A stretch of 9,348 nucleotides of DNA from a bacterium (GTDB lineage: Bacteria > JAMCPX01): the NCBI GenBank assembly GCA_021789095.1, contig JAJYJX010000101.1:1-9348 (forward strand). Direction: 5' to 3'. A program made the position numbers and the translations under genes. Positions within the stretch are counted from its first letter, which is position 1; each line of letters opens with the position of its first letter. Shown here piece by piece: positions 319-9,348 of the stretch. The notes beneath the pieces are model-generated. The model was not told the DNA's origin, did no database searches, and worked only from the letters and a program-made list of their open reading frames with translations.

Positions 319-1077
319 TTATTTCTTCTTTAGGACCGGTTTTTCTTGTGCCGGTGTCTGTTGGGCTGCCGGCAGCTTTTCAAGCGAATTATAAGCTTCC
401 TGTAAATAATTTACGATCGAATCAAGATCAAAAGTATGCCATTCCAGTCTTGCAGAGGACATGTTTGCTTGTGCAGCGCTTAATAGCTTTTCATCATTCT
501 TTGAGGTGTAAAGTTTTCTGTCAGCATTTATAAGTTCGCGGCTCTGTTTCAGAAGCAGGAGTACGGCCTTTGCTTCCTTAGGTATGTACGGCAGAACACC
601 AATCCTGCTGTTGTGGCACCTGTCGCATACGTTTGCCATATCACTGGGGGTTAAGACTGCTGTGACCATGGAGCCGTGGCATGTTACACAGTTAGGCCCC
701 TGGCCTGTTGATTCAAGCTTTTTGTAGTGATAGCTCTGCGTAAATTTGTAGAACTCTGCACCATGACATTTGCCGCAGGTGGAAGGAATATTTTTATAAT
801 ATACCGTGCTGTCGGGATTGCTGGAGCTGAATACTCCTATATGTGCCAGCTTCTCCGTTACCGCGTCAGGATCCCCTCCGTGACATTTATCGCACATTAT
901 ACCGTGTTCCTGGTGTATGGAACCCTGCCAGCTGTGCGATTTTACTCCTATAAAACTTTTATTTGATAAAACCGAATGACACCTGACACATGAATTACCG
1001 GCCTTTGCAGCCTGTACGCCCAGGACAAGTATGACGCTCAGTATGAATAATAGAACCGGACATTTAAACTTTATCAT
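319..1077 (-). CDS. Periplasmic pentaheme cytochrome c (soluble), last gene of the minus-strand bc operon
   Basis: This 252-residue protein has a signal peptide (about 1-26, hydrophobic core LLFILSVILVLGV, cleavage near AKA-GN) and five CXXCH heme sites at residues 30-34, 62-66, 101-105, 130-134 and 151-155. After the last heme comes a heme-free, probably helical region (about 165-235) ending in a Pro/Ala/Lys-rich tail. This resembles the C-terminal helices of some multiheme cytochromes, though I cannot name a family. There is no membrane anchor. The start is set at ATG 1075-1077: the frame extends upstream to 1131, but those 18 residues lie inside the cytochrome b gene, precede the signal peptide, and have no ribosome site as good as GGGGGAGGG (1086-1094). 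The gene begins 4 bases after the cytochrome b stop. It probably carries electrons from the Rieske/b core to periplasmic acceptors, in place of cytochrome c1. The first half resembles the other pentaheme cytochrome of the operon. Confidence 0.9.
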   Translation of the reverse strand: MIKFKCPVLLFILSVILVLGVQAAKAGNSCVRCHSVLSNKSFIGVKSHSWQGSIHQEHGIMCDKCHGGDPDAVTEKLAHIGVFSSSNPDSTVYYKNIPSTCGKCHGAEFYKFTQSYHYKKLESTGQGPNCVTCHGSMVTAVLTPSDMANVCDRCHNSRIGVLPYIPKEAKAVLLLLKQSRELINADRKLYTSKNDEKLLSAAQANMSSARLEWHTFDLDSIVNYLQEAYNSLEKLPAAQQTPAQEKPVLKKK

Positions 1078-1081
1078 TTTT

Positions 1082-2320
1082 TCATCCCTCCCCCTTTTTA
1101 TTGTAGAGCCGTAGAAGCGGATAGGAAACAACTGCCGCTATAGCTGTAGCAAGGATCACGTACAGGATCATCGTCTTCGGTTCAATATGAAGCACGTCAA
1201 TGTAACCGGAAACAACAAGCATAGTCAGGAACACTCCGCCGGTAATGCCAAAAGATGTCATAAACGGCCTGCGAAGCGGATTGATAATATAATGCTGCTG
1301 CTCCTTTGCCCTGTCGAGCAGGGGCACAAGTGCGAAGACCAGGATCAAGAATGTCGGGAAGATAACGCCTCCTATGGTCTCCGGGGTAATCTTGCCTCCG
1401 AAGATAGAAAATGAAAGGTCGCCCGGAATGAGCTTCAAAAATCCATAGATAACTAGGAAGTACCAGTCCGGCCTCATGACAGGCGTACCGGGTGACGGCG
1501 GGCCGTAGGTCTCGATAGGATTTAACGGAATATAGGTGGCGGTCATGACGATTACAAACAGCAGGAAGAAAAAGAACGCTATACTGATGAATGCCTGTTC
1601 AGGCCAGATTGGGATGCCGATGAGCCGTTTGCCGTTTTGTGCTTCAGGCCTGTTTTTATTGGAGGACGGTTCCGTGTGCTTTTGTTTGACCAGTATAATC
1701 AGGTGCAGCCCGATAAGACTTAAAAGCAGGAGAGGAATAAGCATGACATGAAGGAAAAAGAAACGGGGCACCGTTGCATTGGAAGGAAAATCTCCGGCAA
1801 AGAGCAGGCTTGAAATCCAGTTGCCGATCCATGGGACTGACTTTGCAATGTAATACCCTATGGACGTAGCCGTAACGGAAAAATTGCTGTACGGCAGCAG
1901 GTATCCGGTAAACGCCGCAAAAAGGGACAGCCCGAACAACCCAAGTCCGACATACCAGTTTATCTCCCTTGGGTTCCTGTAGGCCGACGTGAAGTAAATT
2001 CTCATAAGGTGGGCAAGGATTGCGGCTATCATGAACATCGCACTCCAGTGGTGTATGCGCCTTATAATCATACCCATGGAAAGCAGGTCTATCCTGACTA
2101 CACTTGCGTAAGCTGCAGGCACCATTGCGCCGAACAGGGGAACCATCTTCGTTGACGGCTCATACAGAAGACCAAGAAATATGCCCGTTATAATAAGCGT
2201 TATAAAGGAGAACAGCGCGATCTCTCCCAGGAGAAATGTCGGGTGAGTCGGGAATGTCTTGGACAGAAACTTTTCTTTGAATTTTTTTAGCTCAAGTCTT
2301 TCATCAAACCATTTAAACAT
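1082..2320 (-). CDS. Cytochrome b of Rieske/b complex 1 (b6 plus subunit IV fused, PDWY type)
   Basis: The 412-residue polytopic membrane protein is the diheme, quinol-oxidizing core of a bc-type complex. Its N-terminus (WFDERLELKKF) closely resembles cytochrome b6. The four heme b ligands are His90/His104 and His191/His206; the 14- and 15-residue spacings are the b6 pattern, since mitochondrial cytochrome b has 14 in both helices. The C-terminal half matches subunit IV, with the Qo-site motif PDWY at 284-287 in place of PEWY. A charged linker (about 213-235) joins the two halves, giving one fused chain with about eight helices. The usual PWDQ-like motif after GYLLP is replaced by PYSN (143-146). 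The cysteine that binds heme ci in b6f is absent (Leu30 in that position). The gene starts 18 bases after the Rieske stop, with AAGGGGA as ribosome site. It probably oxidizes menaquinol and passes electrons to the neighbouring Rieske protein. Confidence 0.95.
   Translation of the reverse strand: MFKWFDERLELKKFKEKFLSKTFPTHPTFLLGEIALFSFITLIITGIFLGLLYEPSTKMVPLFGAMVPAAYASVVRIDLLSMGMIIRRIHHWSAMFMIAAILAHLMRIYFTSAYRNPREINWYVGLGLFGLSLFAAFTGYLLPYSNFSVTATSIGYYIAKSVPWIGNWISSLLFAGDFPSNATVPRFFFLHVMLIPLLLLSLIGLHLIILVKQKHTEPSSNKNRPEAQNGKRLIGIPIWPEQAFISIAFFFFLLFVIVMTATYIPLNPIETYGPPSPGTPVMRPDWYFLVIYGFLKLIPGDLSFSIFGGKITPETIGGVIFPTFLILVFALVPLLDRAKEQQHYIINPLRRPFMTSFGITGGVFLTMLVVSGYIDVLHIEPKTMILYVILATAIAAVVSYPLLRLYNKKGEG
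1086..1094 (-). promoter_or_regulatory. Ribosome binding site fixing the start of the soluble pentaheme cytochrome
   Basis: On the minus strand this reads GGGGGAGGG, 8 bases before ATG 1077-1075. It lies within the last codons of the cytochrome b gene, consistent with coupled translation, and favours this start over the longer frame that begins at 1131. Confidence 0.6.
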
Positions 2321-2338
2321 TGCATAATCCCCTTTTTA

Positions 2339-2959
2339 TTAAACCTGAGGGCCTATAGGGCCTTTAAAATCACTTGTAAAAGCAAGTGTATCATCGTCAT
2401 TTACCTTAACGCCTATTTGCGCAAGCGGTATTGGTGCAGGCCCGCCTTCAACCAGCTCGCCCCTTGCAGGATTGAATGTGCTGTTATGACAGAAACATTC
2501 GGTGTAGGAAGCATCGGGCGAACCCGTATTTTTTACCCAGGAAACCGTGCAACCGAGGTGCGTGCATATTGCACTGTAAGCAACAAAGCCTTTATCCGTA
2601 TATTGAATATCCGTCGGTGCTTTGAAATCGGATTCATTGAGCTTGATAAGCTGGACGAGATTTGCGGGGTTTGATGATTTGCCCTTGGGGTATACGAGTT
2701 CCGCATCACCGACGTTGAACGAGCTTGCCTTGATCTCCATACCGATATTGCTGCCTGACGCATAGACAAGGAGATCACCCGGTTCGATCGTAGATACATA
2801 ACCGCTGCCCTTTTTTGAAGGGGACAGCACCTTCAGCAGTGACAGGAGCGAGCCGAATGCGCCTATTATGGCTACGATCATTGTACCGATAATGAACCGT
2901 CTTCTTGTTATACCCTGTTTGTCCGTGTTATCCGTTGTTTTTCCCGGTTCATTTACCAT
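2339..2959 (-). CDS. Rieske [2Fe-2S] protein of Rieske/b complex 1
   Basis: The 206-residue protein has an N-terminal twin-arginine segment (ITRRRFIIG, residues 17-25) followed by one hydrophobic helix to about residue 43. This is the usual Tat-exported, membrane-anchored layout of Rieske subunits. The cluster-binding boxes are CTHLGC (132-137) and CFCHNS (155-160). By family rule Cys132, His134, Cys155 and His158 bind the 2Fe-2S cluster, and Cys137 with Cys157 form the disulfide. The second box differs from the common CPCHGS in having Phe and Asn. The Ser and Tyr residues that tune redox potential cannot be assigned without an alignment. The ATG (2959-2957) overlaps the end of the upstream small membrane gene by 7 bases and has a GAGGAGG ribosome site, so the two are probably translationally coupled. 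It takes one electron from quinol at cytochrome b and passes it to the multiheme cytochromes. Confidence 0.95.
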   Translation of the reverse strand: MVNEPGKTTDNTDKQGITRRRFIIGTMIVAIIGAFGSLLSLLKVLSPSKKGSGYVSTIEPGDLLVYASGSNIGMEIKASSFNVGDAELVYPKGKSSNPANLVQLIKLNESDFKAPTDIQYTDKGFVAYSAICTHLGCTVSWVKNTGSPDASYTECFCHNSTFNPARGELVEGGPAPIPLAQIGVKVNDDDTLAFTSDFKGPIGPQV

Positions 2960-3216
2960 AACAGTTCCTCCTCTCTGTCCTCTGAGACCTCTCTGAACTC
3001 AAGGAAATACTTTAAATAAAGTGTGAGAATTATCCCTGTAATGAAAAATTCAATAGAGAGCAATGTGCCCATTATAAAATTGTTTCCCTTTCCTGTTATA
3101 AAAAGGTAAGCAAACAGTACGCTTATACAGAGGGATAGAATGGATAGCATTATAATTGCCGCTGTTGCTGCTATCGAGTAGGACGGTTTTTTGCTGTGTA
3201 GAATCTCAAACCCCAT
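2953..3216 (-). CDS. Small two-helix membrane protein of the bc operon, function unknown
   Basis: The 87-residue product has two hydrophobic segments (about 15-41 and 48-70) joined by a short TGKGNN turn, and a C-terminal acidic tail (EVSEDREEELLW). There are no heme motifs and only one cysteine, in the first helix. It has a near-ideal ribosome site (AAGGAGATAACC then ATG), starts 2 bases after the upstream cytochrome stop, and overlaps the Rieske start by 7 bases, so it is very likely a real gene made together with the complex. I do not recognise the family. An accessory or assembly subunit of the Rieske/b complex is a reasonable inference, by analogy with the small single-helix subunits of b6f and bc1, but nothing in the sequence identifies a role. 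Confidence 0.8.
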   Translation of the reverse strand: MGFEILHSKKPSYSIAATAAIIMLSILSLCISVLFAYLFITGKGNNFIMGTLLSIEFFITGIILTLYLKYFLEFREVSEDREEELLW

Positions 3217-3218
3217 GG

Positions 3219-3935
3219 TTATCTCCTTTTCTCTATAAGGATATAAATAATATAGGCGATAATGAATAAAACGATTATGGCGCCGAATGCAACAAAGCCG
3301 ATCTGGAATGAACCCAGCTCTTCAGGGAACAAGGGCAGTTCCTTGCCCTTAACCTTTTCCTCGGCCAGCTTTATCCTTAATCTTGAAAGTTCGGTTACCG
3401 TTGCATCATTGACGTTCATGGGATCTATCTGATCAAAGCCGGTTGTGTCCTTGTGGCATTTCTCACACGATTTTGGAACGTCGGGGATAATGACATAATG
3501 TGCCGAGTGACAGTCGGTACACGACGGGCCGCCTTTATTGTCAAGGTATGCAACTCCCATGATGCTGTTCTCGTACCTGTTAACAGAGTCACTGTGGCAT
3601 TTGCTGCATACGTCGAACATCTCCTTGCCTTTTGGTACGCCGATAAAGCCTTTTGCCCTGGACATTGCGAGTGCTTTCTTGCTCGCAAATTCCTGCTGGG
3701 AGAGCTGTTTTACGTTGCCGACATCTATATCAGCATCGCCGCCATGGCAGGACACGCATGTTACGCCGTTCTGTTTGTGGAGCGACCGCAGCCAGCACTC
3801 GGTGACACATTCGGCCTTTTCCTGCGGTATTGTGCTGTGGCATGTCAGACATGCGTTCTGCTTCGCATTAACTTTTGCCGCGCATAAAAATATTACAGTA
3901 ATCAAGGTTACATATTTTATTGTTTTGTTCCACAT
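3219..3935 (-). CDS. Membrane-anchored pentaheme cytochrome c, first gene of the minus-strand bc operon
   Basis: The 238-residue protein has a signal peptide (about 1-24), five CXXCH heme sites at 29-33, 60-64, 110-114, 139-143 and 157-161, a heme-free stretch to about 209, and a single C-terminal transmembrane helix (about 211-234) followed by EKRR. The heme domain should therefore sit in the periplasm, held by a tail anchor. A CVTEC pair at 43-47 resembles a heme site but lacks the histidine. The region around the second heme (SLHKQNGVTCVSCHGGD) parallels GSIHQEHGIMCDKCHGGD in the operon's other pentaheme cytochrome, so the two are probably distant paralogues. The start is ATG 3935-3933, with AAAGGA 9 bases upstream. 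As the first gene of a Rieske/b operon lacking a cytochrome c1 gene, it is a good candidate for the electron acceptor of the Rieske protein; this is inference. Confidence 0.9.
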   Translation of the reverse strand: MWNKTIKYVTLITVIFLCAAKVNAKQNACLTCHSTIPQEKAECVTECWLRSLHKQNGVTCVSCHGGDADIDVGNVKQLSQQEFASKKALAMSRAKGFIGVPKGKEMFDVCSKCHSDSVNRYENSIMGVAYLDNKGGPSCTDCHSAHYVIIPDVPKSCEKCHKDTTGFDQIDPMNVNDATVTELSRLRIKLAEEKVKGKELPLFPEELGSFQIGFVAFGAIIVLFIIAYIIYILIEKRR

Positions 3936-4262: not shown

Positions 4263-4634
4263 ATGAAAAAGATTGCGGTCACAATATTAATGCTCGGTTC
4301 GCTGGTCTTTGCAGTTTATGCATTTGGAAAGGGCAATGACCAGGTACTTGCCAAAACAGGGGCGGATCTCTTTGCAACAAAGGGATGCACAGCATGCCAC
4401 ACCATAGGCAAAGGCAAGCTGGTAGGCCCTGACCTTAAGGGAGTAACAAAAACAAGAACAACAGCATGGCTAAAGAACTGGCTTAAAAACACAAACCAGA
4501 TGCTGCAGACCGATAAAACTGCCAAAGAGCTTGAAAAAGAATACGGCGTGCCCATGCCGCAGCAGAGTTTGAACAACGAAGAGATCAATGCGCTGATCGC
4601 TTATTTCAAAGCAAGCGACCAGGGAAAGAAATAG
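4263..4634 (+). CDS. Small monoheme class I cytochrome c, first gene of the plus-strand bc operon
   Basis: The 123-residue protein has a signal peptide (about 1-20, cleavage near VYA-FG) and a single CTACH heme site at 42-46 in the typical class I setting GADLFATKGCTACHTIGKG. The conserved GPDLKG loop follows at 55-60. The likely distal heme ligand is Met98 in GVPMPQQSL, followed by the C-terminal helix NNEEINALIAYF. It should be a soluble periplasmic electron shuttle. The ribosome site AGGGGG lies at 4249-4254. Position at the head of a Rieske/b operon suggests that it accepts electrons from that complex or from its tetraheme subunit. It ends 102 bases before the flavoprotein start, with no strong terminator between them, so co-transcription is likely. 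Confidence 0.92.
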   Translation: MKKIAVTILMLGSLVFAVYAFGKGNDQVLAKTGADLFATKGCTACHTIGKGKLVGPDLKGVTKTRTTAWLKNWLKNTNQMLQTDKTAKELEKEYGVPMPQQSLNNEEINALIAYFKASDQGKK

Positions 4635-4717
4635 CAGGAAACGGGTTCAATAGCCTGCTTGCAGATTTCTGCAAATTGAGCAAACTTCCTTATGGCATTT
4701 TTCGGGTTAACCGAAAA
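4633..4717 (+). other. Structured intercistronic stretch with three short hairpins
   Basis: Between the monoheme cytochrome and the flavoprotein lie three possible stem-loops: AGCAGG/CCTGCT (4633-4638 with 4654-4659), TTGCAG/CTGCAA (4659-4664 with 4669-4674, sharing one base with the first) and TTTTCGG/CCGAAAA (4699-4705 with 4711-4717, loop GTTAA). The last ends 5 bases before the ribosome site of the flavoprotein gene. None is followed by a run of T, so termination is unlikely. They could set mRNA processing or stability so that the small cytochrome is made in excess. Stems this short can occur by chance. Confidence 0.3.
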
Positions 4718-4722
4718 CCCAC

Positions 4723-4727
4723 GGGAG
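4723..4727 (+). promoter_or_regulatory. Ribosome binding site deciding the flavoprotein start
   Basis: GGGAG lies 9 bases before ATG 4737. The in-frame upstream ATG at 4692 has no purine-rich site before it and falls ahead of the hairpin at 4699-4717, so the shorter 650-residue protein is preferred. Confidence 0.55.
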
Positions 4728-4736
4728 CAGAAAACC

Positions 4737-6689
4737 ATGGATAAATACAAAGTGAGGTTAAGGGATCTGCCGTCTTTCAGGGAAGAAGTCTTATGCATGA
4801 TGGGATGTCCCATACACACGGACGCAGGCATGTATGTCCAGAGCGTGCCAAAGGGAGAATATGAAGAAGGTTATTTAATCGCACGATCCCCGAATCCTTT
4901 TGCCTCCGTATGCGGAAGGGTGTGCGCGGCACCGTGCGAAGACGCATGCAGGAAGGGCAAAGTCAATATCGAAGAACCCATAACAATAAGGTCTTTAAAA
5001 AAATTCATTTGTGAACGTTACGGTGCGGAATCAAAACAGCCTGACACGCAGGGCAAGCTTTTGACAGGCCACATTCCCAATAGTCATGGGTGGAGCGGGG
5101 ACGCACCCCTGCTGTCAAAACAGGACAAAAGCAACAGGAAGGTCGCTGTTATAGGAGCAGGTGTCGGAGGGCTTTCGTGCGCGCATGACCTGGCACTGAG
5201 GGGATACAGGGTCACAGTGTTTGAAGCTTCAGACACCGCAGGAGGCATGGTGAGGTTCGGCATACCGCGGTACCGCCTGCCGAACTATGTGCTTGAAAAA
5301 GAGATCCAGAAGATCGCGGACCTTGGAGTGGAAATAAAATACAAGACACCGCTCACAGATGAATTCGGCATAAGCGAATTAAGGAAACAGGGCTATGAAG
5401 CAATATTCATTGCAGTGGGAGCTCAGAGCGGGAGGAGCTTGGACATAGAGGGCAGCAACATAAACGGAGTTATCAAGGCGATCGAGTACCTTGTGAGCGG
5501 GAACAGGGGACTGAAGTACAACCTCGGGGGAAGGGTCGTGGTCATAGGCGGAGGGCTTGTTGCACTGGATGCCGCGCGTGATGCGCTCAGGACACTCATG
5601 GAAAACGTCCAGAGGGAGCGTGTCAGGCTTACAGCGGAAGCAAGTGAAGTGGCAGAGCAGAGAATATTTGAAACCCTTGATGTTGCAAGGGCGGCACTCC
5701 GTGAGGGGGCAATAGAAGTTAATGTCGTGAGTCTTGAATCAATGGACCAGATGCCCGCTGCAAGGAGCATCCAGGGCAAGGCAGAACTTGTGGAAACAAA
5801 GGATGAAGGTATAATCTTTTCCCATTCATGGGGTCCCAAACGGATCATCGGCGAAAACGGAAAGGTAAAAGCCGTTGAGTTTAAAAAGGTGGTTTCCGTC
5901 TTTGACGAGAAAGGCAGGTTCAATCCGACCTTTGATGAAAGTGTAACAAAGGTTTTCGAAGCGGACTCGGTGATCATGGCGATCGGCCAGGCAGTAGAAG
6001 TGTCCTTTCTTAAGAAGGAAGAAAATGTAGAGGTGTCGCCGCGCGGTACGATAAAGATTAATCTTAACACGCTTGCCACTACCGCAGAAGGCATATACGC
6101 AGGCGGAGATGCCGCATTCGGTCCGCGCAACCTGATCGATGCCATAGCCGACGGCAAAAAGGCCGCTGCCTCGATAGATGAATACCTGTCAGGCAAAAGA
6201 AGGAAACTCAGGTACAGGGTCAATGTAGACGTCCTGCAGTCAGACCATTACAGCATGCCGGAAGATTACGATGTCTATGCCAGGAAAACACCGGCCCTGC
6301 TTGAACCTGAAAGAAGGATTGGTCTCCAGGAGGTAGAGCAGTCTTACACAGAGGAGGAGGCAGTGATCCAGGGCGCACGATGCCTGCAGTGTCACACAAG
6401 TCCTGTTTATAATTCAGACCCGTGCATTTTGTGCGGCAGGTGCTCGGACGTTTGTCCCGAGGACTGCTTTGCATTTGTCCCGCTTGAAGAGGTGGATTTA
6501 AGCGTGGAAGACAGAGAAAATATTTACCATACTTTAGGATACAAAAAGAATGAACCTGTTACTGTGCTGGTAAAGGATGACGAGAAGTGCATCAGGTGCG
6601 GACTGTGCGCCGCCATCTGTCCGACCGGTGCCATGATGATGGAAAGGATTATAGTTAAGGAGGAATTTGCAAATGGCGGACAACAATAA
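4737..6689 (+). CDS. GltD-like FAD/NAD(P)-binding iron-sulfur oxidoreductase within a bc operon
   Basis: This 650-residue protein belongs to the glutamate-synthase-small-subunit-like flavoprotein family. In order: an N-terminal cysteine-rich Fe-S domain (CMMGCP at 20-25; CGRVCAAPCEDAC at 59-71); the FAD-binding motif GAGVGG (140-145); the nucleotide-binding motif GGGLVALDAARDALR (271-285); the FAD-closing motif YAGGDAAFGPRNLIDAIADG (454-473); a GARCLQC segment (546-552); and a C-terminal two-cluster ferredoxin (CILCGRCSDVCP at 563-574, CIRCGLCAAICP at 618-629) expected to hold two 4Fe-4S centres. There is no signal peptide or membrane helix, so it should be cytoplasmic. No glutamate synthase large-subunit gene is nearby; instead it sits between a cytochrome c and a Rieske gene and overlaps the latter by 17 bases. 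It may pass electrons between NAD(P)H, its Fe-S centres and the cytoplasmic side of cytochrome b. The GltD-type Arg-Arg pair is missing (Leu332, Glu333 at that place by my alignment). Confidence 0.92.
   Translation: MDKYKVRLRDLPSFREEVLCMMGCPIHTDAGMYVQSVPKGEYEEGYLIARSPNPFASVCGRVCAAPCEDACRKGKVNIEEPITIRSLKKFICERYGAESKQPDTQGKLLTGHIPNSHGWSGDAPLLSKQDKSNRKVAVIGAGVGGLSCAHDLALRGYRVTVFEASDTAGGMVRFGIPRYRLPNYVLEKEIQKIADLGVEIKYKTPLTDEFGISELRKQGYEAIFIAVGAQSGRSLDIEGSNINGVIKAIEYLVSGNRGLKYNLGGRVVVIGGGLVALDAARDALRTLMENVQRERVRLTAEASEVAEQRIFETLDVARAALREGAIEVNVVSLESMDQMPAARSIQGKAELVETKDEGIIFSHSWGPKRIIGENGKVKAVEFKKVVSVFDEKGRFNPTFDESVTKVFEADSVIMAIGQAVEVSFLKKEENVEVSPRGTIKINLNTLATTAEGIYAGGDAAFGPRNLIDAIADGKKAAASIDEYLSGKRRKLRYRVNVDVLQSDHYSMPEDYDVYARKTPALLEPERRIGLQEVEQSYTEEEAVIQGARCLQCHTSPVYNSDPCILCGRCSDVCPEDCFAFVPLEEVDLSVEDRENIYHTLGYKKNEPVTVLVKDDEKCIRCGLCAAICPTGAMMMERIIVKEEFANGGQQ
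6657..6663 (+). promoter_or_regulatory. Strong ribosome binding site deciding the second Rieske start
   Basis: AAGGAGG is a full anti-Shine-Dalgarno match, 9 bases before ATG 6673. It lies inside the 3' end of the flavoprotein gene. It favours ATG 6673 over the in-frame TTG at 6667, which would leave only 3 bases of spacing. Confidence 0.75.
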
Positions 6690-7206
6690 GGAAGGAAGGG
6701 ACATTCAAACACAGATTTCGAGACGGCGTTTTTTGTCGTATCTCAGCGGGCTTTTTATTGCCGGCGGATTCCTGCTGCAGGGTTTTGCTGCATTGAAATC
6801 GCTGTTTCCCAGAGTGCTGTATGAACCGCCTACAAAGTTCAAGGTCGGCATGCCGTCCGATTTTCCCGAGGGTGTGAGGTTTTTACCCGAACACAGGCTG
6901 TTTATAATAAGAAACGATGACAGATTTCACTGCATCTCTGCAATATGCACGCACCTCGGATGCACTGTTAATCTTGCCCAGTATTCTCCTCCGAAGGAAT
7001 ATGAGTCACATTCCGGCACGGCGGTTTCAGAAACGTACGAATTTCACTGTCCCTGTCACGGATCAAAGTACAGGGAGAACGGTAATGTCTATGCGGGTCC
7101 GGCCCCCAAGCCGCTCCCCTGGTATAGAATGTATACTGCACCTGACGGACAGATGGTGGTCGATACGAATACCCATGTAGACCACGATTTCAGACTGAAG
7201 GTATGA
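6673..7206 (+). CDS. Rieske [2Fe-2S] protein of Rieske/b complex 2
   Basis: The 177-residue protein has a twin-arginine motif (SRRRFLSYL, 16-24) followed by a hydrophobic helix (about 21-43), so it should be Tat-exported and N-terminally anchored. The cluster boxes are CTHLGC (92-97) and CPCHGS (126-131). Cys92, His94, Cys126 and His129 should bind the cluster, with the Cys97-Cys128 disulfide. The spacer between the boxes contains a Tyr/Ser/Glu-rich insertion (about 103-122), and the end of the protein carries the GPAPKPLPW motif common in Rieske proteins. It differs clearly from the Rieske protein of the minus-strand operon in length, second box and C-terminus, so the two complexes are not a recent duplication. 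The gene overlaps the flavoprotein gene by 17 bases, and cytochrome b follows 10 bases later. Confidence 0.95.
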   Translation: MADNNKEGRDIQTQISRRRFLSYLSGLFIAGGFLLQGFAALKSLFPRVLYEPPTKFKVGMPSDFPEGVRFLPEHRLFIIRNDDRFHCISAICTHLGCTVNLAQYSPPKEYESHSGTAVSETYEFHCPCHGSKYRENGNVYAGPAPKPLPWYRMYTAPDGQMVVDTNTHVDHDFRLKV

Positions 7207-7216
7207 GGGGTCAAAT

Positions 7217-8533
7217 ATGAAAGAAAAGATGAAAGCTTTTATAAGGAAGCTGACATGGACATACAACCCTGCCACAGAGAGGGAGGCATCTGACGCAACA
7301 GCAAGGAATTTCCTTTTGCACTGGTTCCCGGCAAAGGTCACGACAAAGAGCGCTTCAATAAGTTATTCCCTTGCACTCGGGATCATCATCATGACCGAGT
7401 TTACCATACTCACCGTAACAGGGCTTATACTGATGTTCCTGTACGTGCCATCGGTGGAAAGGGCTTACTGGAGCATTAAAGACCTTCAATTTGCGGTTTC
7501 ATACGGATGGTTTATCAGGGACCTGCACAGACTCGCGGCACAGCTCATGGTTGCAACCGTTTTTTTACATATGGTGAGGGTCTTCCTGACCGGCGCGTAC
7601 AAGTACAGTGAAAAGGTCGTGGGCAGCTACAGGCCGCTGAACTGGTGGATAGGCCTTGCATTGCTGCTGTCAACCATGATGCTGTCATACACCGGATACC
7701 TGCTTCCCTGGGACCAGCTTGCGCTCTGGGCCATAACCATCGGGGACAACATAGCACTGTCTGCCCCTGTTGTGGGAAAGCTCGTAAGCAAACTGCTGAT
7801 AGGCGGAACGATCATAGATCAGAATACTCTTATACGGTGGTATGTCGCACATGTGTTCTTTTTGCCGGTGATACTGTTTTTACTTATTATGTGGCACATG
7901 TGGAGGATAAGAAAGGATGGCGGCATGGCGGGTGTTGAGGCACTCGGCATTGAGAGGGTTACGCAGGGCAAGGTTGTATCAAAAGGGAAAACATACAGTC
8001 TCATGGGCATAGTAACGGGCATTACGCCCACAATAACGCAGTACAGGGTCCGCGGCAGCTCTGGAAGTTCTTCGCCTTACCTTACCCGCAGGATCCTCGC
8101 GATCTTTATACTCGTTACTGCCGTAACTATGGGGCTTACATTCCTCGTAAAGGCGCCCCTTGAGCAGCCTGCAAGCCTTATGTGGACGCCGAACCCTGCA
8201 AAAGCGCCGTGGTATTTCCTGTGGCTTCAGGAGCTGGTTGCAGACACTACGGTAAGGTTCGGCAGTTTCACCATAAGCGGCGGATTCGTGGGCGGGATAG
8301 TCATTCCAAGCCTTTTGCTCCTGCTTGCGGTAGTATGGCCGCTCCTTGACAAAAGCCCGGATGAAGCAATCGGTGTATGGTTCCATAAAGCGAGGAGGCT
8401 GCAGAACACGGTGTTCCTGTTCATCTGTGTTGTTATTGTAGTCCTGATCTATGTTGGCGCGGTAATGCGAGGGCCTTACTGGCACATTTACATGCCCTGG
8501 CAGAGCTGGCCGAAAATGCCGACACGGCTGTAA
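7217..8533 (+). CDS. Cytochrome b of Rieske/b complex 2 (fused b6/subunit IV, APWY type)
   Basis: The 438-residue polytopic protein has heme b ligands His104/His118 and His212/His227, with spacings of 14 and 15 (b6 pattern). The canonical TGYLLPWDQ stretch (159-167) is kept. The subunit-IV half starts after a hydrophilic linker (about 230-290). Where PEWY is expected the sequence reads NPAKAPWYFLWLQEL, with APWY at 330-333, so the Qo-site glutamate is missing and alanine-proline precede WY. To my knowledge this PAKxPWY form occurs in cytochromes b of several menaquinone-using bacteria. There is no cysteine near the heme ci position; the only cysteine (404) lies in the last helix. A GAGGGG ribosome site lies 6 bases before the ATG. 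It probably oxidizes menaquinol and delivers electrons to the preceding Rieske protein and the following tetraheme cytochrome. It is clearly diverged from the minus-strand cytochrome b. Confidence 0.95.
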   Translation: MKEKMKAFIRKLTWTYNPATEREASDATARNFLLHWFPAKVTTKSASISYSLALGIIIMTEFTILTVTGLILMFLYVPSVERAYWSIKDLQFAVSYGWFIRDLHRLAAQLMVATVFLHMVRVFLTGAYKYSEKVVGSYRPLNWWIGLALLLSTMMLSYTGYLLPWDQLALWAITIGDNIALSAPVVGKLVSKLLIGGTIIDQNTLIRWYVAHVFFLPVILFLLIMWHMWRIRKDGGMAGVEALGIERVTQGKVVSKGKTYSLMGIVTGITPTITQYRVRGSSGSSSPYLTRRILAIFILVTAVTMGLTFLVKAPLEQPASLMWTPNPAKAPWYFLWLQELVADTTVRFGSFTISGGFVGGIVIPSLLLLLAVVWPLLDKSPDEAIGVWFHKARRLQNTVFLFICVVIVVLIYVGAVMRGPYWHIYMPWQSWPKMPTRL

Positions 8534-8550
8534 ATTGGGAAGGGGAGCAG

Positions 8551-9348
8551 ATGTTTAAAAAAGACCCGGTAATACTGTTTATAGGAAGCGGATTATTATT
8601 TTTGTTTACTGCACTATTGATCTACAGGTCAGGGCATCAGGAATGGAAAACCTTCCAGAGGGAATTCAGGGAACAGGCAAGTTTGACTGTCGGACAGCAG
8701 AGGGCGAACACGGTTGATACGGGGATCCTGCAGATATATATTCCCTCATTAAACCGCGTCGACAGGTGCATAACCTGCCATCAGGGATATGATATACCCG
8801 GCATGGAAAAAGCGAAAGAGCCCTTCACCACGCATCCTGACCTGCCATTCATGAAGTACCATAAATTTTCGCAATTCGGTTGTACGATATGCCACGGAGG
8901 CCAGGGGTATGCAACAGAGGTAAAAGCCGCGCACGGCCTTGTTGAACACTGGGACGAACCGCTCCTGGACAGGAAGCTTGGTGAAGAGTACGGATTGGAG
9001 CACCCCGGGCATATCATGGAAATAAACTGCGATACCTGTCACAGGGACAACCGGAATATAGGGTGGATGGATTACACAAATCAGGCAAAAGAACTGATCA
9101 ACGGAAAGAATTGTACAGCATGCCATATAATAAACGGCCAGGGCGGCAGGCTGGGGCCGGATCTTACCTATGAAGGTGATAAAAATCCCGAGTTGTTTGA
9201 TTTTACAAATGTCAAAGAAGGTCCCAAGACCGCATTCAACTGGCTTTACCTGCATTTTAAAGACCCTGCGGGCGTGACCAAGGGCAGCATAATGCCCAAT
9301 TTCGGGTTTACGGACGAACAGGCACGGGCGCTGACCATGCTTGTTCTG
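8551..9348 (+). CDS. Membrane-anchored tetraheme cytochrome c with C-terminal class I domain, 3' truncated by the window
   Basis: The frame is open from ATG 8551 to the last base (266 codons) with no stop, so the C-terminus is missing. The N-terminus has a short cytoplasmic KKDP segment and one uncleaved-looking membrane helix (about 7-25). Four CXXCH sites follow at 73-77, 111-115, 160-164 and 188-192. The last one opens a class I cytochrome c domain: CTACHIINGQGGRLGPDLTY (188-207), then the probable distal ligand Met248 in GSIMPNFGFTDEQARAL, near the expected end of the domain. The gene begins 17 bases after the cytochrome b stop, with a GGGAAGGGGAG ribosome site. It looks like the cytochrome c1 substitute of complex 2: a membrane-bound multiheme relay ending in a class I domain that could hand electrons to the monoheme cytochrome at 4263. 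The acceptor is inference. Confidence 0.9.
   Translation, partial: MFKKDPVILFIGSGLLFLFTALLIYRSGHQEWKTFQREFREQASLTVGQQRANTVDTGILQIYIPSLNRVDRCITCHQGYDIPGMEKAKEPFTTHPDLPFMKYHKFSQFGCTICHGGQGYATEVKAAHGLVEHWDEPLLDRKLGEEYGLEHPGHIMEINCDTCHRDNRNIGWMDYTNQAKELINGKNCTACHIINGQGGRLGPDLTYEGDKNPELFDFTNVKEGPKTAFNWLYLHFKDPAGVTKGSIMPNFGFTDEQARALTMLVL

Follow-up and report, generated by a model that had tools for sequence, protein, structure and literature searches.

Textbook bc complexes exchange electrons with quinones and cytochrome c only. Contig JAJYJX010000101.1 raises the question of whether a Rieske/cytochrome b complex can also be wired to the pool of nicotinamide adenine dinucleotide (NAD(H)): a gene for a flavoprotein with iron–sulfur (Fe-S) clusters is embedded there between the cytochrome c and Rieske genes of a Rieske/cytochrome b operon. 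The window, namely the whole 9,348-nucleotide stretch analyzed here, is one entire contig (C33) out of the 203 contigs of a 2.15 Mb genome, and it carries two divergent Rieske/cytochrome b operons. All coordinates refer to this stretch, with the block at 4263–9348 read on the plus strand. The reading favored here, with a probability of roughly 60%, is that the flavoprotein belongs stably to the Rieske/cytochrome b complex, as a subunit on its cytoplasmic (n) side, and links it to the NAD(H) pool. A bc complex with such a port would alter energetic book-keeping, as NADH could be obtained from menaquinol without complex I, or electrons from NADH could be delivered straight to a terminal reductase.

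Conservation of the gene block

The plus-strand operon consists, in order, of genes for a monoheme cytochrome c, the flavoprotein, a Rieske protein, a fused cytochrome b, and a multiheme cytochrome c. A preliminary description of the window had proposed this Rieske/cytochrome b operon with a built-in flavoprotein, and all five genes were recovered in the positions it had assigned. The 17-base overlap that it reported between the flavoprotein and Rieske genes was exact, with the Rieske ATG at 6673 and the flavoprotein stop codon TAA at 6687–6689, and overlaps of 17, 17, 11, and 8 bases recur in close relatives. Together, the exact overlap and its recurrence suggest translational coupling of the two genes. 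The absence of a glutamate synthase partner also held, since no GltB (large subunit) was found among the open reading frames (ORFs) of the window. Moreover, the flavoprotein scored under the cut-offs for GltD proper, with 267 versus 471.75 bits for gltA and 178.9 versus 447.7 bits for GOGAT_sm_gam.

A flavoprotein profile was used to scan 84,980 species genomes, and the 80 best loci were counted, a sample in which distant relatives are under-represented. The Rieske gene was directly downstream of the flavoprotein gene in 78 of the 80 loci, while cytochrome b was found in 76 and multiheme cytochrome c in 74; four of the six loci missing some gene run into a contig end. Conserved co-occurrence had been put forward as a check on the preliminary description, and it was borne out, with the flavoprotein adjoining Rieske and APWY-type cytochrome b genes in these 78 loci rather than lying mostly elsewhere. 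Similarly, every orthologue found among 60 other genomes adjoins Rieske/cytochrome b genes. The records were labeled Ignavibacteria, Kryptonia, KSB1, Calditrichaeota, Bacteroidetes/Chlorobi, Acidobacteria, and Anaeromyxobacter, as well as Verrucomicrobia, Binatota, Aminicenantes, Tectomicrobia, Methylomirabilota, Planctomycetales, and Desulfobacterales, and the same gene order occurs in at least 12 bacterial phyla. As the same block is kept in many phyla, it is more than a chance arrangement.

Accordingly, the term window-type module is used here for the order flavoprotein–Rieske–cytochrome b–multiheme c combined with a KTY loop in cytochrome b; both were found in the window, where KTY occupies cytochrome b residues 258–260. 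A cytochrome b is called linked when a flavoprotein gene is in its operon and unlinked when none is there.

Two observations on gene neighborhoods were made in passing. A regulator gene, recognized by Pfam as Rrf2-type in L056 (2848–3324) and suggested by similar short ORF starts in L039, L046, and L060, often precedes the flavoprotein operon, hinting at possible control of the operon by Fe-S status or nitric oxide. In L119 (6983–9049), a 45% identical flavoprotein orthologue ends a nuoC-nuoD-nuoG operon and is perhaps an alternative complex I input module.

The cytochrome b loop, the flavoprotein, and the Rieske protein

The feature of cytochrome b that accompanies the flavoprotein is a loop at residues 237–286 (7925–8074, plus strand), identified in alignments and carrying the motif KTYSLMGI (KTY at 7988–7996). 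It lies between the b6 half, which ends in HMWRIRKDGG, and the subunit-IV half, is cytoplasmic by b6 topology, and has the general motif K-T-Y-S/G-L. The KTY motif was present in 97 of 103 linked cytochromes b, compared with 0 of 22 unlinked ones. The third Rieske/cytochrome b operon of the same genome (L048, on G000 contig C74) has no flavoprotein; in its cytochrome b the motif is lost and the segment has 27 amino acids (aa) versus 47–61, and this protein nests inside the window-type clade (100%). In the AlphaFold2 (AF2) model of isolated cytochrome b, the loop had a predicted local distance difference test (pLDDT) score of 50–61. Conservation without a confident fold in isolation would be expected of a docking element, and the loop is proposed to be the docking site of the flavoprotein. 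The association of loop and flavoprotein may be regarded as strong circumstantial evidence, not as statistical proof.

The flavoprotein gene (4737–6689, plus strand; 650 aa), identified by Pfam, AF2, and Cys conservation, lies in a frame that is open from 4692 (665 aa). The start is probably the ATG at 4737 rather than 4692, because relatives begin there and residues 1–14 of the longer reading had a pLDDT below 50. Pfam detected Fer4_20, Pyr_redox_2, and a 2x[4Fe-4S] ferredoxin domain, which places the protein in the GltD/NfnL superfamily. The single-chain AF2 model had a pLDDT of 91.8; its best fold matches were NfnABC (9bov) and StnABC (8oh5), and the fold is that of the NfnABC and StnABC large subunits, NfnL, dihydropyrimidine dehydrogenase, and GltD. 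As neither a hydrophobic or transmembrane (TM) segment nor a signal peptide was found, the flavoprotein is, judging from its sequence, cytoplasmic.

In the case of the Fe-S centers, about four had been expected, and 17 Cys residues are kept in 65–66 of 66 relatives, 16 of which correspond to four [4Fe-4S] clusters, with one spare. In the 665-aa numbering, Cys35, 39, 74, 78, 82, and 86 (codons within 4794–4949, plus strand; conserved in 65–66 of 66) are ligands of the N-terminal part, which has two [4Fe-4S] sites, and Cys564, 567, 578, 581, 584, 588, 592, 633, 636, 639, and 643 belong to the motif RCLQC and the 2x[4Fe-4S] ferredoxin domain (6381–6620, plus strand). The RCLQC region (residues 531–572) aligned with the N-terminus of NfnL-type proteins in phmmer; because RCLQC sits N-terminally in those proteins, the alignment indicates that the first cluster motif is shifted to the C-terminal side, giving a permuted order. 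The four clusters would suit an electron wire between heme b and flavin adenine dinucleotide (FAD). The flavoprotein shares Fer4_20 and the FAD and NAD(P) domains with NfnL, NfnABC, StnABC, and GltD, but differs from them in the C-terminal RCLQC, the extra 2x[4Fe-4S] domain, SLES in place of YRR, and a membrane Rieske/b partner. The CXXCH in the flavoprotein (CLQCH, residues 564–568) was considered as a heme site and rejected, because the protein is cytoplasmic and these two Cys are a conserved Fe-S pair.

The motif SLES (5730–5741, plus strand) ends strand 2 of the NAD domain, at the position where solved relatives in the PDB have the YRR of enzymes using NAD phosphate (NADP(H)), and 62 of 64 window-type flavoproteins have L/I/P-E there. 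In work on DsrL, the NAD(P)H:acceptor oxidoreductase encoded in dsr operons, enzymes with YRR were reported to use NADP(H), and a preference for NAD(H) was reported for enzymes lacking this motif (PMC7596348). DsrL is of the same superfamily and likewise supplies electrons to a respiratory redox enzyme or withdraws them from it, but it belongs to another clade and has another partner. Because SLES replaces YRR, and by the DsrL precedent, NAD(H) is predicted by homology to be the nucleotide of the flavoprotein. Thus, for the link to the NAD(P) pool put forward earlier, the predicted nucleotide is NAD(H) and not NADP(H). One Rieske/b-linked flavoprotein of the window clade (L207, genome G392) has YRR, so the clade may include a change in nucleotide preference.

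The Rieske [2Fe-2S] protein (6673–7206, plus strand; PF00355, 7.8e-14) has a Tat-type (twin-arginine translocation) RRRF anchor and the motif CPCHGSKY, with both the Ser and the Tyr of high-potential Rieske proteins. This Ser–Tyr motif was tried as a marker of flavoprotein coupling and discarded, being too common in linked and unlinked proteins alike. The closest solved structures to this Rieske protein are 9rk4 and 9rk3, both from the anammox bacterium Kuenenia. The fused cytochrome b (7217–8533, plus strand; 438 aa), identified by PF00033/PF13631, alignments, and AF2 with a fold search, is of the b6 type, as its invariant heme His pairs H104/H118 and H212/H227 are 14 and 15 residues apart on two TM helices. 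APWY (8204–8215, plus strand) occupies the PEWY position of the Qo site in 62 of 62 aligned rows, and the Cys of heme c_n was absent from the cytochrome b of the window (A53) and from all 62 window-type rows. His35 (7319–7321, plus strand), the counterpart of Kuste4571 His43 and Kustd1481 His62, is invariant in 62 of 62 rows; it was rejected as a marker of an electron path to the flavoprotein, as flavoprotein-less paralogues keep it. Compared with cytochrome b6f and bc1, the module likewise has a Rieske protein and a cytochrome b with four heme His and a Qo motif, but adds an NAD-linked cytoplasmic unit and has a multiheme cytochrome c for cytochrome f/c1 and APWY for PEWY. The cytochrome b had also been called menaquinol-type. 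Its sequence, with an APWY motif that is shared with anammox, does not show this; menaquinone use is nevertheless likely, because the genome contains the menaquinone gene mqnC.

In the proposed mechanism, the flavoprotein would dock where the b6 and subunit-IV halves join, on the loop that is specific to linked cytochromes b, and electrons would move between NAD(H) and the b heme of the n side through FAD and the four [4Fe-4S] clusters. At the Qo site on the p side, quinol would be oxidized, and one of its electrons would pass via the high-potential Rieske center to the two cytochromes c, pentaheme and monoheme. The final high-potential acceptor would be NosZ in many relatives. Experimental handles are provided by the KTY loop, by the switch between SLES and YRR, and by the paralogue of this genome that naturally lacks a flavoprotein.

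Relation to anammox complexes and direction of electron flow

For two operons of Kuenenia stuttgartiensis, Kuste4569-4574 and Kustd1480-1485, it has been proposed that the encoded complexes form NAD(P)H through quinol bifurcation. The potentials measured for their Rieske centers were +303 and +335 mV, and the complex subunits comigrate; AlphaFold3 models put a flavoprotein with four clusters on the cytoplasmic side and an additional b heme where the two cytochromes b of the dimer meet (PMC12954380). Both operons were recovered in genome G488 (Rieske identical to 9rk4), and the checked residue numbers of that study all fit. As in the window, a Rieske protein, an APWY b6-type cytochrome b, a multiheme cytochrome c, and a GltD-like four-cluster flavoprotein are encoded together, and the proposed interface-heme His (H43/H62, equivalent to H35) and Arg247 (R232) are shared. 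Since H35 and R232 are equally kept in flavoprotein-less paralogues, their conservation, as read from the alignments, is not specific to flavoprotein electron transfer, which bears on the published Kuenenia model too. Unlike the window, where cytochrome b is fused (438 aa), lacks the c_n Cys, and has KTY, Kuenenia has a split cytochrome b (b6 plus a five-helix subunit IV) with the heme c_n Cys and no KTY loop. Both of its flavoproteins have YRR in place of SLES, the gene order differs, and the flavoproteins are 33–34% identical to that of the window and lie outside the window clade.

In the cytochrome b tree, the anammox b6 subunits nest among flavoprotein-less b6 proteins that mostly have the c_n Cys (97%), and a single clade for all flavoprotein-bearing cytochromes b was rejected by the approximately unbiased (AU) test (p 0.003). 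The window-type flavoproteins form a clade at 100% without anammox; their union with anammox was neither established (76%) nor rejected, and in a second flavoprotein tree a 97% split separates the two. The simplest reading of these trees is that the flavoprotein was recruited separately in the window-type and anammox lineages, with multiple losses as a possible alternative. If the two lineages arose separately, NAD(P) was wired to the bc complex more than once. The anammox complexes had been named as the closest precedent. They are indeed the closest described, and they include the closest solved Rieske structures, but the cytochrome b tree and the AU test set them apart as a different family, and their flavoproteins lie outside the window-type clade. 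NAD(H)-linked Rieske/b complexes have hitherto been proposed only for anammox bacteria, and the results suggest that the window type is a second, widespread kind. Moreover, the architecture is now found in cultured genera such as Anaeromyxobacter, beyond uncultured or slow-growing anammox bacteria.

The gene for nitrous oxide (N2O) reductase, nosZ, was the next gene after multiheme c in 55 of 113 sampled linked operons versus 0 of 22 flavoprotein-less ones; an example is found in L067 at 12661–14520. In L045, L046, and L163, the genes after the block encode a decaheme cytochrome and a large oxidoreductase exported via Tat. Because of these downstream genes, the module can be described as plugged into operons of high-potential periplasmic reductases. 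N2O is a greenhouse gas; to our knowledge, nosZ is its sole known biological sink, and we know of little on the electron supply to nosZ in clade II organisms. Clade II (atypical) nos clusters resemble the module in having Rieske–cytochrome b–cytochrome c genes upstream of nosZ, and these genes have been noted before (PMC11096178, PMC9697520). In the literature consulted, no flavoprotein was described in nos or acidobacterial Rieske/b operons beyond anammox, a weak negative because much subscription literature lay outside it. A broader view can be offered only tentatively, at slightly less than even odds: the module would be a second class of Rieske/cytochrome b complex, one that was assembled independently, is much more widespread, and is permanently wired to NAD(H) via a loop-docked flavoprotein. 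In Acidobacteria, Ignavibacteria, Anaeromyxobacter, and others, it would be the electron supply of clade II N2O reductase, coupling N2O respiration to the NAD pool at the bc level.

Physical coupling of the flavoprotein to the Rieske/b complex is likely, because it is favored by the synteny in 78 of 80 loci, by the loop that follows the flavoprotein, and by the same architecture in Kuenenia, where the subunits comigrate. The flavoprotein could instead be a soluble enzyme that shares the operon only, serving in regulation, maturation, or redox sensing with another partner. The GltD/NfnL superfamily is rich in soluble enzymes with many partners, and two orthologues have no Rieske/cytochrome b neighbors; however, the adjacency and the overlapping genes, together with a cytochrome b loop that appears and vanishes with the flavoprotein, make this unlikely.

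Several points nevertheless weigh against an NAD(H)-linked complex. The physical interaction is one that we infer, and the structural models are of single chains. The Ignavibacteria locus L060, which has no Rieske neighbor, and the Methylomirabilota locus L119, in a complex I operon, are true exceptions to the gene order. Among the six linked cytochromes b without KTY, five are from split-type operons that have no KTY on the b6 subunit and one has RTWGLM; one of the five, the split-gene locus L184, carries the motif on subunit IV instead. The association of loop and flavoprotein amounts to two independent changes on the tree, both in the expected direction, and thus has no statistical power. 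His35 and nearby Arg/Lys residues are equally kept in flavoprotein-less paralogues, and R583 of the flavoprotein, the equivalent of Kuste4570 Arg511, is an Arg in just 37 of 66 relatives. The Ser–Tyr Rieske motif is not confined to linked proteins, and 53 of 98 of these have Ser and Phe. Finally, NosZ-linked hosts look heterotrophic and might spend NADH rather than make it.

Given coupling, we lean slightly toward quinol-bifurcating NAD+ reduction over NADH input, leaving the rest to reversible or other modes. In bifurcation as in anammox, one menaquinol electron would go via the Rieske center to a high-potential acceptor and the other via the b hemes and Fe-S clusters to NAD+, yielding NADH without complex I. 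The thermodynamic scheme and the Rieske centers above +300 mV of Kuenenia (PMC12954380) support such a route, as do the sequence of the window's Rieske protein, which is closest to that of Kuenenia and has both potential-raising residues, the mqnC gene, and the missing c_n Cys, without which there is no competing c_n route. It nonetheless stays a possibility short of probable, as most nosZ-linked hosts are probably heterotrophs that have NADH in abundance, the Rieske motif lacks specificity, and a high potential in the window-type clade is a sequence-based expectation.

In the opposite direction, the flavoprotein would be an NADH dehydrogenase module feeding the n-side heme or Qn, and the whole an NADH-to-cytochrome c (or N2O) oxidoreductase bypassing complex I. 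The NAD(H)-type motif, the nosZ genes directly downstream in 55 of 113 operons, which make a reductant-spending setting, and the close flavoprotein relative at the end of a nuo operon (L119) are consistent with NADH input. We consider it doubtful, because bypassing complex I wastes the energy between NADH and menaquinone (an argument made in PMC12954380), this genome family has a complex I that includes NuoF, and NAD+ was the better in vivo acceptor in the DsrL work (PMC7596348). Confurcation, with ferredoxin or another low-potential carrier docking on the ferredoxin domain and NAD(H) as the second substrate, is suggested by the flavin-based bifurcating enzymes among the related proteins (NfnL-type, NfnABC/StnABC). 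It is quite improbable here, as the conserved block has no second flavoprotein or ferredoxin gene and four clusters suffice as an internal wire.

Accompanying genes of the window and the genome

The first gene of the block (4263–4634, plus strand) encodes a monoheme class I cytochrome c (PF00034, 4.4e-13) with one CXXCH and a signal peptide or TM segment at residues 4–22, and this protein is likely a periplasmic electron carrier. A monoheme cytochrome c gene is also upstream in the relatives L034, L035, L042, and L044, and not in L037. The last gene (8551–9348, plus strand), encoding a membrane-anchored multiheme cytochrome c, is clipped by the contig end, with four CXXCH in the 266 aa present. 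Its intact relatives carry five CXXCH; the protein is thus a pentaheme cytochrome c that ends here after four hemes, and it may take the role of cytochrome c1/f.

The divergent minus-strand operon (319–3935) encodes another Rieske/cytochrome b complex, with a PDWY motif, DUF7318, and two pentaheme cytochromes c, and adjoins the flavoprotein operon in L042 and L044 too. DUF7318 is chiefly a haloarchaeal family. A Rieske/cytochrome b cluster of Methanoperedens with two pentaheme cytochromes resembles this operon (PMC4683180). The flavoprotein-less operon L048 also has genes for a tetraheme cytochrome c, a protein of 304 aa, and a molybdopterin oxidoreductase of 757 aa whose N-terminus is Tat-like.

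In the family of the window, nosZ was not in the operon, and no nos_propeller match was obtained in a search run without a positive control. Contig C88 (L259, 283–2313) carries a norC-norB-like pair of the cytochrome c nitric oxide reductase type, in which the NorC-like protein has two CXXCH; this pair may be a high-potential acceptor to which the cytochromes c deliver electrons. The DsrL of this genome has the YRR (NADP) motif. An origin from Ca. Acidulodesulfobacterales, acid-mine Deltaproteobacteria that lack nuoEFG (PMC6776010), was considered and is not supported, since that group has YNK in DsrL and NuoF is present here; a missing NADH module of complex I is accordingly not used as an argument. 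The dsrL gene lies on contig C104 (L049) in a dsrA-dsrB-dsrD-dsrL-dsrN-like cluster, which marks the organism as a sulfite reducer or sulfur metabolizer.

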